Shown in pieces: positions 53,399 to 61,988 of a DNA stretch of 64,000 nt; position 1 is the first letter of the stretch, and each line of letters begins with the position of its first letter. The notes beneath the pieces are model-generated. The model was not told where the DNA came from. It saw only the letters and a program-made list of their open reading frames with translations, and did not search any database. The translations under genes and the position numbers were made by a program. The stretch is from Chryseobacterium lactis (GTDB taxonomy: Bacteria > Bacteroidota > Bacteroidia > Flavobacteriales > Weeksellaceae): the NCBI RefSeq assembly GCF_003815875.1, contig NZ_CP033924.1, positions 2,852,001 through 2,916,000 of the forward strand. Direction: 5' to 3'.

Positions 53399-53587
53399 TT
53401 ATCTTGGAAAAGGAAGTTTATCTACCGGGTAGCAACCACAAAGACAGTTCCATTGATCCATAGGTTCGGAACAGTCTCCTAGTGCTTCACATTTCCATAG
53501 TGCTCCCGGAGGACATGCCGGAACATTTGGGCCCGCTCCTTTTACTTGCTTTAACTCTTCTCTCGAGATTTTCTTTAAATTTTTCAT
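53399..53587 (-). CDS. Cys-rich leader peptide, bacteriocin-like (singleton)
   Basis: 62 residues. Leader MKNLKKISREELKQVKGAG with a Gly-Ala site at 17-18, the type I associate with Chryseobacterium 'bacteriocin-like' peptides. The core of about 43 residues carries six Cys at 24, 33, 39, 48, 50 and 52 (C-x8-C-x5-C-x8-C-x-C-x-C), a different pattern from the cluster at 59.7-60.6 kb. It is rich in Pro and ends DKLPFPR. No modification enzyme or transporter gene is nearby. Own terminator. Confidence 0.8.
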   Translation of the reverse strand: MKNLKKISREELKQVKGAGPNVPACPPGALWKCEALGDCSEPMDQWNCLCGCYPVDKLPFPR

Positions 53588-58228: not shown

Positions 58229-59575
58229 TTACAAAAGTTTTCCGGTTAAGAAAAGTCCGGCTACCGTAAAATAAATGATAAGTCCCGTTACATCAACTAA
58301 AGTAGCTACAAATGGAGCCGAAGAAGTTGCAGGGTCAAGTTTTAATTTCTTTAAAACAAATGGAATCATAGATCCGGATAGGGTACCCCATAATACAATG
58401 GCAATCAGGGAAACAGAAACACTCAAACCTACATAGGCCCAATATTGTCCATAATCAAAAAGACCTATTTTTTGCCACAACATAATTCTGATAAAACCAA
58501 TGATTCCCAAAATAGCACCCAGACATAGTCCTGAGATAATTTCCTTTCTCATCACATACCACCAGTCTTTTAAACTGATTTCCTGAAGAGCCATCGCACG
58601 GATAATAAGAGTAGCCGCCTGTGAACCTGAGTTTCCACCACTGGAAATAATAAGAGGAACAAATAAGGCTAAAACAACTGCCTTCTCAATTTCCTTATCA
58701 AAATACCCCATCGCTGAAGCTGTCAACATTTCCGAAACAAAAAGAATGATCAGCCAGGTAGCCCTTTTCTTGATCATTTCAGTCCATGAAGTTTGAGTAT
58801 AGGGAAGGTCTAATGCTTCCAATCCCCCAAATTTCTGGATATCTTCCGTATTTTGTTGCTCAATCTGATCCAGGATGTCATCGATTGTTACAATTCCTAC
58901 CAGAACACCGGCTTCCGTAATAATGGGAAGAGCACCACGGTCATACTTTTCGAAATACGTTACCGCATCCTCTTTGGACGTTGTTGTAGTGATGGCAACG
59001 AAGTGATTGTCTGTAATATCAGAAACCAACGTATCTTCTTCTTCAAGAAGTAAAGTTCCGATCGCAAGGTCATCAATCAGGCGATTTCTTTCATCAACTA
59101 CGTACAGGTAGTTCATGGTTTCCACTCTTCTTCCTACCTTTTTAATTTGCTGAAGACATTTTTTTACCGTCCATTCCTTACGGATCTGGATATAATAAGG
59201 AGTCATCAGACGGGCAATAGAATCTGAATTGTAACCCAAAAGTTTTAAAGCAATCCTTCTTTCCTGCGGATTAAGATGATTGATCGAGTACTTAATAAGC
59301 TCATCCGGAAAGTCCTCAAACAGGGCAGTCCTGTCATCCGGAGTCATTGCATTCAGAATTTCAGAAACATCATCACTTCCAATGCTTCTGATGGTATCTT
59401 CCTGAAAATCCGGATCAAGGTGAGAAAAAACTTCCGCTTTATACTCCTTCGGAACTTTCAGGAATGCGAGCAGCCTCTCGTCAGCTGGAAGTTCGCTGAG
59501 GGTTTCGGCAATGTCGGCAGGGTTGAAGATAAGTTCGTCTCTAGAGTTCAATACGTGAAATTTTAGGATATGCAA
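58229..59575 (-). CDS. mgtE: Magnesium transporter MgtE
   Basis: 448 residues. Order: MgtE N-domain (about 20-125, [34 protein letters not shown]), two CBS domains (about 130-255, [45 protein letters not shown]), then five membrane helices of the permease domain with the signature [26 protein letters not shown] and the C-terminal [27 protein letters not shown]. Mg-gated Mg2+ uptake channel in the inner membrane. Confidence 0.95.
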
Positions 59576-59654: not shown

Positions 59655-59682
59655 CAAAAAACACCCGCCGGGACGGATGTTC
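59655..59682 (-). terminator. Terminator of the left peptide unit
   Basis: On the minus strand, AACATCCG ... CGGGTGTT hairpin (one G-T pair) followed by TTTTTTGC. Lies 33 bases past the stop of the peptide gene at 59715. Confidence 0.7.
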
Positions 59683-59714: not shown

Positions 59715-59888
59715 TTAATCAAAAATAGGCTCACATTCTGTAATAGGAGAGGGTAGGCAGAATCCTCCGGTACAACATTCACCGGAATCACATTTAGGAT
59801 AAGTATTTCTGCATTTTTTCATTTGCAGGCTCCCTTTAATTCCTTTTTGCTCTGCTCTGTTCAGTTTTTTGAAATTTGAAGTTTTCAT
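59715..59888 (-). CDS. Cys-rich leader peptide 1, knottin-like
   Basis: 57 residues, too short for standard gene calling. Leader MKTSNFKKLNRAEQKGIKGS (variant of MKNLKKLSREASKQIKG). Core: six Cys in C-x6-C-x4-CC-x4-C-x7-C (CRNTYPKC, GECC, GFC, TEC) ending EPIFD. The adjacent-Cys centre with one Cys pair before and after is the knottin arrangement. It shares a transcript with peptide 2, with a terminator behind it. Function unknown; a secreted toxin-like or signalling peptide is possible. Confidence 0.7.
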   Translation of the reverse strand: MKTSNFKKLNRAEQKGIKGSLQMKKCRNTYPKCDSGECCTGGFCLPSPITECEPIFD

Positions 59889-59922
59889 AGCAATTGATTT
59901 TAATAATTAAGGTAATATGATT

Positions 59923-60066
59923 TTAATCCTCTATACATGCATATTCCATACAAACACCTTTACAGCACATTCCGTAGATACATTGTGTGTGTTCTGTACA
60001 TTTTTTTGGTCCTGCACCCTTAATTTGCTTAGAAGCTTCTCTGCTGAGTTTTTTTAAATTTTTCAT
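59923..60066 (-). CDS. Cys-rich leader peptide 2, knottin-like
   Basis: 47 residues. Leader MKNLKKLSREASKQIKGAG (Gly-Ala site at 17-18), core KKCTEHTQCIYGMCCKGVCMEYACIED reduced to the motif C-x5-C-x4-CC-x3-C-x4-C (Cys 23, 29, 34, 35, 39, 44 by count). Same spacing as peptides 3 and 4. First gene of its unit, preceded by a conserved 85-bp upstream block. Confidence 0.8.
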   Translation of the reverse strand: MKNLKKLSREASKQIKGAGPKKCTEHTQCIYGMCCKGVCMEYACIED

Positions 60067-60152
60067 AGTAGTTTAGATTTTAATGTTTGACTAAAATAAT
60101 AAATATTTTTTAATTATTCCTTATTTAGTGAAAATATTTAATTGATTATCAG
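60067..60152 (-). repeat. Duplicated upstream region, copy A (before peptide 2)
   Basis: About 85 bp matching 60551-60632 closely, including an identical run around AATATTTTTTAATTATTCC and the next TTATTT(A/G)GTGAAAATATTTAATTGA. On the minus strand it lies directly before the peptide start, so it carries the promoter and leader. A strict TAnnTTTG motif is not evident. Confidence 0.75.
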
Positions 60153-60186
60153 TGTTATATTGAATTATTTTAATTTGTGTTAAAAA

Positions 60187-60209
60187 AATACACCTGCTAA
60201 AACAGGTGT
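60187..60209 (-). terminator. Terminator of the right peptide unit
   Basis: On the minus strand AACACCTG, loop TTTTAG, CAGGTGT, then ATTTTTTT. Lies 23 bases past the stop of peptide 3. Confidence 0.75.
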
Positions 60210-60231
60210 TATTTGCTAATATTGATAGGTT

Positions 60232-60372
60232 TTATTCTATACAGATAAATTCTTTACACATCCCGTCACAGCAATATCCCACTGTACAAGGATCTGTTTC
60301 ACTGCATCTGCGGAATCCTCCACCTTTAATTTGTTTTGTTGCCTCTCTGCTGAGCTTCTTTAGATTTTTCAT
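60232..60372 (-). CDS. Cys-rich leader peptide 3, knottin-like
   Basis: 46 residues. Leader MKNLKKLSREATKQIKGGG with a double-glycine site, core FRRCSETDPCTVGYCCDGMC and KEFICIE: C-x5-C-x4-CC-x3-C-x4-C, identical spacing to peptides 2 and 4. Second gene of the right unit, 34 bases after peptide 4. Confidence 0.8.
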   Translation of the reverse strand: MKNLKKLSREATKQIKGGGFRRCSETDPCTVGYCCDGMCKEFICIE

Positions 60373-60406
60373 AAGATCTGGATTTTAATGCTTTAAAAGG
60401 TTTATG

Positions 60407-60550
60407 TTAATCAATTCTACATCTCTGAGGACTGCATATGCCTTGGCAGCACCATCCGATGGTACAAGGTATATTTTCACCACACTTTGGAACCGCTCCT
60501 CCATTGATCTGTTTAGCGGCGTTTCTGCTGAGTTTCTTTAAATTTTTCAT
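60407..60550 (-). CDS. Cys-rich leader peptide 4, knottin-like
   Basis: 47 residues. Leader MKNLKKLSRNAAKQINGGA with a Gly-Gly site, core PKCGENIPCTIGWCCQGICS and PQRCRID, the same C-x5-C-x4-CC-x3-C-x4-C frame while the loops differ. First gene of the right unit, headed by the second copy of the duplicated upstream block. Confidence 0.8.
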   Translation of the reverse strand: MKNLKKLSRNAAKQINGGAVPKCGENIPCTIGWCCQGICSPQRCRID

Positions 60551-60632
60551 AAGATTTAGATTTAATGTAAGACTAAAATAGTAAATATTTTTTAATTATT
60601 CCTTATTTGGTGAAAATATTTAATTGAAATAC
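60551..60632 (-). repeat. Duplicated upstream region, copy B (before peptide 4)
   Basis: Partner of 60067-60152. The spacing to the peptide start is the same in both copies. Confidence 0.75.
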
Positions 60633-60730
60633 AGTTATTTATAGTGTGTTTTTAATAATAGGTAGTTCTGGTGGAAAGCAATTAATTAAAAAGTAAAGAA
60701 TAGTAGAGATCCGGACATTCAAAAGAATAA

Positions 60731-60820
60731 TTACACTTTTGAAGACCTCTTTGGTAATTCCAAAATCAGTTTCTGGCTGTCTTGGCTCAGTTTTTTTAAT
60801 CTGTGCTTTTCCTGATAATT
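60731..60820 (-). pseudogene. Remnant of a fifth leader peptide gene
   Basis: A minus-strand frame without start codon reads YQEKHRLKKLSQDSQKLI and ends ELPKRSSKV then stop. The RLKKLSQDSQK part echoes the leader LKKLSREASKQ of the cluster; the Cys core is missing. The rest of the 60633-60996 gap shows no gene. Confidence 0.35.
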
Positions 60821-60996
60821 GAATATGAAATTAAGCTAATAAAACGAGTCCGGTTTTCAGAAAGCCAGATATATTTTACACGATAACGTCTGCGAATAAC
60901 GGAGAAGAAGTACTATGAATCAATTGGATTGAGATTCATAGATAATTTTGAATAGTAAGGAAAGATGCAAAAAGCTAGAGAAGGTTAGGTTTTAAT

Positions 60997-61545
60997 TTAA
61001 AGTTCAGCTTCGGTAGGCTTCAGTTTTCTCAATTGCTTGATAATCCCTTTTATCGCTCCCTCAGTTCCTATTTTTACAGAATTGACAGTAGAACCCAGCA
61101 GTCGCATGTTTTTTCGGTACGTATCATGGTCGGTTTCGGTTACCAGATTTCCATCTGCTCCGAAAAGTTTCATGCTGACAACAACCTGGTTGGAAAAGAC
61201 ATATTTGCCCAGACCTACCTTAAAATATCTTACTTTGGAAACAATAGCAAAATCAGCATCGTTGTTGACGCAGTAGTCCACGATCGTTTGTTTGTCGATA
61301 CTGTCAAAAGGAACCTGAACTTCTGCCCGGAGCATTTTGTTTTTTCTTCCGCTGAAGTTGTCGGAAACAGCACTGAAAAAAGCATTATTGGTAGGCTCCT
61401 TTATTTCATCAATATCAGGCTCTACCTCGGGATTGAAGTATAGAACTTTTCTTATTTTATCATCAGCATTTTTCTGTGCTTTTACCGAAATAAAGCTCAC
61501 TGATAAGAAAGTAATAAGGGCTGTAAAGAATATAATTTTTCTCAT
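60997..61545 (-). CDS. Secreted protein of unknown function, about 182 aa
   Basis: From the ATG giving MRKIIFFTAL (61557 would add four residues). Signal peptide ends near SVKAQ. The mature domain (KVLYFNPEVEPDIDEIKEPTNNAFFSAV, IVDYCVNNDADFAIVSKVRYFKVGLGKYVFSNQVVVSMKLFGADGNLV, IGTEGAIKGIIKQLRKL) has the alternation of a periplasmic alpha/beta domain that resembles LpoB/GNA1162-type folds, but I cannot assign it. Alone between the peptide cluster and rpsO. Confidence 0.8.
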   Translation of the reverse strand: MRKIIFFTALITFLSVSFISVKAQKNADDKIRKVLYFNPEVEPDIDEIKEPTNNAFFSAVSDNFSGRKNKMLRAEVQVPFDSIDKQTIVDYCVNNDADFAIVSKVRYFKVGLGKYVFSNQVVVSMKLFGADGNLVTETDHDTYRKNMRLLGSTVNSVKIGTEGAIKGIIKQLRKLKPTEAEL

Positions 61546-61652
61546 TTGTAATTCCAATGCAAAATTACTGCCTTTTCGTTGGATTTCATCAAATTAATTA
61601 AGAAATTTTTAACATTTTTTTCTATCAATTTTGATTTATGAAATCAATAATG

Positions 61653-61718: not shown

Positions 61719-61988
61719 ATGTACTTAACAACAGACAAAAAGCAGGAAATTTTCGCACAACATGGAAAATCTGCACAAGACACAGGAAGCGCAGAAGGAC
61801 AAATCGCTCTTTTCACTTTCAGAATTAATCACTTATCTCAACACCTAAAGGCTAACCGTCACGATTTCAACACAGAGAGATCTCTAGTGAAATTGGTAGG
61901 TAAGAGAAAAAGTTTACTAGATTATCTTAAGAAAAAAGATATCGCAAGATATAGAGCAATTATTGCTGCATTAGGATTAAGAAAATAA
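61719..61988 (+). CDS. rpsO: 30S ribosomal protein S15
   Basis: 89 residues, full length. S15 signature: YLTTDKKQEIFAQHGKSAQDTGSAEGQIALFTFRINHLSQHLKANRHDFNTERSLVKLVGKRKSLLDYLKKKD. Binds 16S rRNA in the platform of the small subunit. Monocistronic here, with consensus promoter and terminator. Confidence 0.98.
   Translation: MYLTTDKKQEIFAQHGKSAQDTGSAEGQIALFTFRINHLSQHLKANRHDFNTERSLVKLVGKRKSLLDYLKKKDIARYRAIIAALGLRK

Follow-up and report, generated by a model that had tools for sequence, protein, structure and literature searches.

Among the described systems to which the locus reported here can be compared, the bacteroidetocins are class IIf bacteriocins that kill Bacteroidales, according to excerpts of two reports (PMC6671954, PMC8546649). 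As outlined in the excerpt of the first report, their loci comprise a gene for a peptide with a GG leader, an ABC transporter with a peptidase, a thiol oxidoreductase and a TM protein, with no evident immunity gene, and the activity was weaker after deletion of the oxidoreductase or the TM protein gene (PMC6671954). A second point of reference is the C39 protease described in the excerpted part of PMC6363468, which cleaved its substrates behind GA as well as GS and accepts cores of many kinds.

The locus studied here lies in a stretch of 64,000 nucleotides from the genome of Chryseobacterium lactis (the window). It is a real, conserved array of small peptide genes with its own upstream element, and what is new about it is a six-cysteine variant of the bacteriocin-like peptides that carry the leader_Chryseo leader. 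An ABC transporter with a peptidase in the same locus, as in the bacteroidetocin arrangement, was not found, since the window contains no C39 match.

The array peptides and their leaders

All four open reading frames (ORFs) that an earlier note had read from the letters of the window are present at their places on the minus strand (Table 1). The cysteine spacings listed there, three identical ones and a near-variant fourth, are exact: the cores of P2, P3 and P4 follow C-x5-C-x4-CC-x3-C-x4-C, and the P1 core follows C-x6-C-x4-CC-x4-C-x7-C. As translated, the peptides have the knottin order C-C-CC-C-C with short loops. The leaders had rightly been assigned to a bacteriocin-like type of Chryseobacterium, as P2–P4 pass the leader_Chryseo cut-off (NCBIfam NF047798, 23.5 bits) and P1 falls just under it. 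The Gly-Gly or Gly-Ala ending claimed for all leaders holds for P2–P4, with putative cleavage sites at Gly-Gly in P3 and P4 and at Gly-Ala in P2, but not for P1, whose leader ends in Gly-Ser.

Table 1. Features of the array and of its surroundings, with positions counted within the window.
Feature	Position	Strand	Description
MgtE family gene (mgtE)	58229-59575	-	Pfam MgtE, MgtE_N and CBS; one border of the array site, outside the system
Terminator-like hairpin after unit 2	59659-59682	-	Follows P1
P1	59715-59888	-	57 aa; variant leader ...IKGS; second gene of unit 2; leader_Chryseo 21 bits
P2	59923-60066	-	47 aa; leader ...IKGA; first gene of unit 2; leader_Chryseo 26.1 bits
Copy of the conserved upstream element, unit 2	60091-60140	-	50 bases, as at unit 1
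Terminator-like hairpin after unit 1	60190-60209	-	Follows P3
P3	60232-60372	-	46 aa; leader ...IKGG; second gene of unit 1; leader_Chryseo 28.8 bits
P4	60407-60550	-	47 aa; leader ...INGG; first gene of unit 1; leader_Chryseo 33.4 bits
Conserved upstream element, unit 1	60573-60622	-	50 bases, TAAATATTTTCAC-N8-GAATAAT-N4-AAATATTTAYTATTTTAG
Decayed further copy	60700-60830 (approximate)	-	Leader remnant without start codon, core beginning in another frame
Hypothetical gene hyp60997	60997-61557	-	No Pfam family; adjoins rpsO; other border of the array site, outside the system
rpsO	61719-61988		Pfam Ribosomal_S15; neighbour of hyp60997

Chromosomal site and distribution

A protein search with the four peptides retrieved 34 relatives, and every named one comes from Chryseobacterium. 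When one genome per species was scanned, 77 loci were obtained, of which 52 (L065–L116) match the array beyond the leader; these and the window make up the 53 syntenic arrays analysed below. The related arrays encode one to eight peptides. They adjoin mgtE in all 52 loci and are followed on the other side by hyp60997 and rpsO in 51, the exception (L087) ending at a contig end; both gene names follow the Pfam assignments. Neither an mgtE nor an rpsO flank was found at the 25 loci that match mainly by leader (L117–L141). Two of these leader matches (L118, L126) lie in Elizabethkingia genomes, and the leader type therefore extends beyond Chryseobacterium. The gene adjoining mgtE is of the long-loop type represented by P1 in 47 of the 53 arrays.

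Nine genomes of the genus were chosen for having no array-profile match or no leaders. In each of them mgtE and hyp60997–rpsO are adjacent (71–498 bases apart, measured between alignment ends), and no leader peptide was seen between mgtE and hyp60997, which indicates that the arrays occupy one fixed site that is either filled or empty. When 296 genomes from the family were scanned at an E-value of 1e-12, with 23 candidates or fewer scored per genome, the array profile hit 98, and all of these fell within a single one of the 33 genera. A local RiPP cluster was considered and rejected: the array is flanked by mgtE and hyp60997–rpsO in 51 of the 52 loci, the LanB, LanC and radical SAM genes found lie elsewhere, and no modifying enzyme, as would stand beside the precursor of an enzyme-modified RiPP, occurs at the array.

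Conservation of the cysteines and selection on the cores

The leader ORFs of the 53 arrays, which were chosen by leader with no cysteine criterion, number 217, and 212 of them encode exactly six cysteines; the remaining ones have five (n = 3), seven (n = 1) or none (n = 1). The earlier note had made its case dependent on homologues with conserved cysteines, and these evidently exist. In a second set, also of 217 peptides and requiring four cysteines, the predominant spacings were 5-4-0-3-4 (n = 153), 5-4-0-4-7 (n = 41), 6-4-0-3-4 (n = 9) and 6-4-0-4-7 (n = 5), followed by rarer ones. The x4 loop with the subsequent CC is preserved in 216 of the 217 peptides. The loop residues are variable; only a glycine is fixed, plus a proline in the long-loop type.

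Selection was assessed by simple pairwise counting in groups of close relatives formed at 72% identity, of which the 14 largest were used. The dN/dS of the non-cysteine core codons was 0.03–0.42 in these groups and that of the leaders 0–0.28, with pS near saturation in some groups and pairs that are not independent of each other. Purifying selection acts on the non-cysteine core codons. The view that the residues between the cysteines vary while the spacing is kept stands for the comparison between paralogues, but among the close relatives of one group the cores show constraint and no diversification, which does not resemble an ongoing arms race.

Transcription units and upstream element

The four genes form two two-gene units, P4–P3 and P2–P1, with 34 bases separating the genes within each. 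A 96-base repeat (83% alike) precedes both units. Since upstream repeat, gene pair and hairpin are all duplicated, the cluster probably originated by duplication of the whole upstream-gene-gene-terminator unit. The 50-base element pattern has two matches in the 5.6-Mb genome when up to three mismatches are allowed, both of them at the array, and the reversed pattern, used as a control, has none under the same conditions. A 60-base upstream block scored above 15 in 86 of 106 array units, 61 of which had been used to build the matrix. At the window's own units its scores were 74 and 69, and it reached 12 nowhere else in the window on either strand.

Within 300 bases of 36 further leader peptides, taken from 54 that were read in the genome, the block is absent (best score -15.9). 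Given this value against the 69 and 74 at the array, one common switch for all leader peptides via the array element was rejected. The canonical Bacteroidota promoter motif, TTG-N17-23-TAnnTTTG, was also sought and occurs upstream of none of the 106 units. Terminator-like hairpins (second criterion) follow 95 of the 106 units and occur in none of 111 within-unit gaps, which at 11–69 bases fall short of the 90-base stretch scanned after units. The array therefore seems to own a switch that the other leader peptides tested do not share; the element itself is observed, and it would be the means by which the array is regulated.

A decayed further copy lies about 250 bases upstream of P4, its core remnant being identified by visual comparison with the first L065 peptide. 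This copy, together with the five of 217 leader ORFs that deviate from six cysteines, might suggest that the ORFs are unexpressed or decaying and kept by chance. Such an explanation is extremely improbable and was rejected, because the cysteines are fixed (six in 212 of 217), dN/dS is well below 1 in all 14 groups (0.03–0.42), and hairpins and upstream element recur at most units (95 and 86 of 106, respectively).

Leader peptides of the genome

The leader model had 62 matches in the genome at an E-value of 1 or better, 34 of them over the cut-off; at E 1 it also matched in two of 14 control genomes, and at E 1e-4 in none. At least 58 distinct complete leader peptides with 51 cysteine frameworks are encoded, a count from which five non-leader ORFs, one edge-cut peptide and two further ORFs had been left out by eye and in which part of the peptides represent a second leader type under the NF047798 cut-off. 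Six cysteines are present in 33 of the 58, four in 19, eight in five and five in one. An even cysteine count, which is what paired disulfides predict, is thus found in 57. Among 59 genomes of the genus, 55 contain the leader at E 1e-4, with 6–39 occurrences each.

Peptides of the second leader type (KKLNKKELKxITGG, KLTKSELKEINGG) are clustered at L148 and L152–L155 (G000:C1:1369700-1371100, 4403550-4407500), have four- to eight-cysteine cores and remain under the leader-model cut-off. The leader match that ranks first in the genome is a further peptide in the window (53399–53587, minus strand) with the pattern C-x7-C-x5-C-x8-C-x1-C-x1-C; L002 and L005, elsewhere in the genome, have a similar framework.

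Export and oxidation machinery

The earlier note had stated that no transporter lies in the window and had proposed a search for a C39-peptidase ABC transporter elsewhere. Four such exporters were found in the genome, all of them outside the window, as is the genome's one match to a VKOR-thioredoxin protein. Three of the exporters (L143, L144, L145) stand in radical-SAM and class I lanthipeptide-type clusters, one next to LanB and LanC, one next to LanB and one next to a radical SAM protein. The fourth (L142, G000:C1:2046000-2056000) is accompanied by HlyD, the VKOR-thioredoxin protein, two leader peptides and an AraC-type regulator, with exporter and HlyD near G000:C1:2046500-2050400, about 0.86 Mb from the array. 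The motifs CRVC and CGFC are present in the L142 VKOR protein and KDCGPTC in the exporter.

A VKOR match of at least 60% identity occurs in all 55 leader-positive and in one of the four leader-negative genomes among the 59 of the genus (P 1.2e-4, uncorrected for kinship). In G037 the match is interrupted by stops, and G028 has kept it with leader matches absent at E 1e-4. A lone C39 match is present in 16 of the leader-positive genomes; in 15 of these it lies on the same contig as the VKOR gene and within about 5 kb of it, as judged by eye, and in G018 on another contig. Where the lone C39 gene adjoins VKOR, the L142-type exporter should therefore serve, if C39 export is the route. Conversely, one leader peptide (L006) is encoded about 0.2 kb after the exporter of the LanB cluster L145, so that other exporters may serve some leaders.

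From neighbourhood and co-occurrence, we infer that leader peptides are exported and their disulfides formed at the L142 machine. Each array peptide carries an N-terminal leader, as its sequence family shows, that is probably cut at Gly-Gly, Gly-Ala or Gly-Ser; the core would be exported by the L142 C39 ABC transporter with HlyD, and the VKOR-thioredoxin protein would oxidise its cysteines to three disulfides. The cleavage after GA and GS seen in the excerpt of PMC6363468 fits the three kinds of site in the array.

Fold of the cores

Knot topology is plausible for the array peptides on the basis of their cysteine framework. AlphaFold models had low confidence (pLDDT 61.9 and 60.4), with one hairpin as the only core element of at least three residues per strand, and Foldseek searches found nothing usable. 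In profile searches against the PDB, the best match of the main-type core was GXIA (E 0.0049, the sole match under E 0.01), a cone-snail peptide. P1–P4 all remained below the cut-offs of the Pfam knottin families. Single cores of relatives matched weakly to Conotoxin_I2 in 26 of 40 cases (best E 0.0064) and to Toxin_19 in 6 of 12 (best E 0.0033). Neither family matched any of a further 36 cores encoded in the genome, among which 33 have other frameworks; the knottin-family signal therefore seems to follow the framework. The matched conotoxin families and Toxin_12 are inhibitor cystine knot (ICK) folds.

The strongest hint of a knottin comes from a sister peptide in the same genome, L003 (G000:C1:651049-651198, minus strand), a member of the CCPGW family NF047792 (114.1 bits, cut-off 80). 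Its core passes the gathering score of Pfam Toxin_12, described as 'ion channel inhibitory toxin' (31.7 versus 21 bits, E 2.4e-7). In the PDB, L003 matches SGTx1 best (E 0.009). It has 30 matches at E 10 or better; Dickkopf-4 accounts for two of them, and the names of most others are those of engineered knottins or spider toxins. Within the genus, 25 of the 59 genomes encode CCPGW members. The UniProt name of one L003 homologue (P0037) begins with 'Ion channel inhibitory toxin'. Since L003 combines C-C-CC-C-C with a score over the Toxin_12 cut-off, the knottin framework is not new to the leader family, contrary to what the earlier note had supposed. The open-access literature searched contained no report of the array or of bacterial knottins, and the papers found under CCPGW or the family names are, by title, not on bacteria.

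Exported disulfide-rich peptides with a non-knot topology, for example a Dickkopf-like finger or a laddered pairing, are a reading to which we give considerable but minority weight. Searched against the PDB, the full-length profile matched Dickkopf-2 best (E 0.14), and the single hairpin of the models agrees with such a fold, whereas the main-type core-only profile finds GXIA and not Dickkopf, and the sister family of L003 passes a curated Toxin_12 cut-off. Lost cysteines gave no inference on pairing, as there were no paired losses in the three five-cysteine peptides. The framework itself points to a knottin-like miniprotein as the probable folded product, with pairing I-IV, II-V and III-VI.

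The P1-type core profile matched Bowman-Birk trypsin inhibitors best (E 0.13 and 0.14) and also asteropsin G (E 1.7). Secreted protease inhibitors or binders of extracellular proteins on a knottin or Bowman-Birk-like scaffold might be considered accordingly, all the more as plants have knottin protease inhibitors, according to a literature excerpt. We regard this as improbable, because the Bowman-Birk E-values are not significant and the loops are variable, with nothing fixed beyond the glycine and the proline mentioned above.

Proposed function

By analogy with the bacteroidetocins, the likeliest role of the array peptides is to antagonise neighbouring bacteria. This is the first choice because bacteroidetocins, as excerpted, share with them the GG leader, the ABC transporter peptidase, the thiol oxidoreductase and the lack of an evident immunity gene. 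The core net charge is 0 to -2 in 186 of 217 peptides, unlike that of many membrane-active antimicrobial peptides, and these neutral-to-acidic cores would favour a protein target over membrane disruption. Besides the charge, it speaks against the proposal that the constraint within groups fits an arms-race weapon poorly and that neither exporter nor oxidase lies beside the array. Taken as a whole, the proposal of secreted array peptides with PCAT export, VKOR oxidation, a knottin-like fold, antagonism and a switch of their own is one towards which we lean slightly.

The same constraint on the cores, the single chromosomal site within the genus and the upstream element of the array would also suit disulfide-stabilised pheromones or developmental signals that leave by the same export route, since C39 exporters also export signals (excerpt of PMC6363468), and that are read by the producer or its kin. 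We consider signalling unlikely, although less so than protease inhibition, since the divergent paralogues and the 51 cysteine frameworks in 58 peptides exceed what a signalling set needs, and no receptor gene was recognised between the array flanks.

Tentatively, and with more doubt than conviction, we propose that Chryseobacterium maintains a venom-like library: dozens of disulfide-rich miniproteins in about 50 cysteine frameworks per genome, among them true ICK peptides convergent with spider and cone-snail toxins, would be handled mainly by one promiscuous C39 exporter and VKOR-thioredoxin oxidase, with the mgtE–rpsO array as a separately regulated knottin module. Should the knots be true, bacteria would make and export knottins by a simple, portable system, which would make these stable scaffolds accessible to genetics and give a clear example of convergence on animal toxins. 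If there are no knots, it still holds that at least 58 disulfide-rich peptides, most of them not encoded beside an exporter, are tied by co-occurrence to one export-oxidation cluster. The single-machine view predicts that loss of one gene would remove most of the secreted set.

Comparison with known systems

The array shares its leader domain with NF047798 (leader_Chryseo, 'bacteriocin-like protein'), and many of its homologues bear that name. The model, however, spans only the 18-residue leader and is silent on core, fold, locus, exporter and oxidase. The CCPGW putative bacteriocins (NF047792) have the same leader and the order C-C-CC-C-C, with L003 as a member in the same genome, but the array peptides score only 12.5–21.1 bits against the cut-off of 80 and differ in their spacing, in lacking the CCPGW motif and in their locus.

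As in the prochlorosin/LahT system, a C39 exporter would serve many precursors with a common leader and diverse cores; the products described in the excerpt of that report are lanthipeptides or other RiPPs, whereas disulfides are expected for the array, which has no modifying enzyme alongside (PMC6363468).

With bacteroidetocins, as far as the excerpts describe them, the array has in common the phylum Bacteroidota, a GG-type leader site (in theirs, after a leader of 15–16 aa; GS in P1 and GA in P2) and cysteines in the core, in addition to the ABC transporter with peptidase and the thiol oxidoreductase; an evident immunity gene is missing in both. Bacteroidetocins, which kill Bacteroidales via BamA, have four cysteines (some at least two) and an exporter alongside, in contrast to the six cysteines in C-C-CC-C-C order, the one to eight genes and the distant putative exporter of the array. 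ICK peptides of Pfam Toxin_12 and the conotoxin families resemble the array peptides in the order C-C-CC-C-C and by weak matches, and L003 scores over the Toxin_12 cut-off, but P1–P4 match none of them significantly. With its bacterial leader and export route, the array more likely resembles ICK peptides by convergence.
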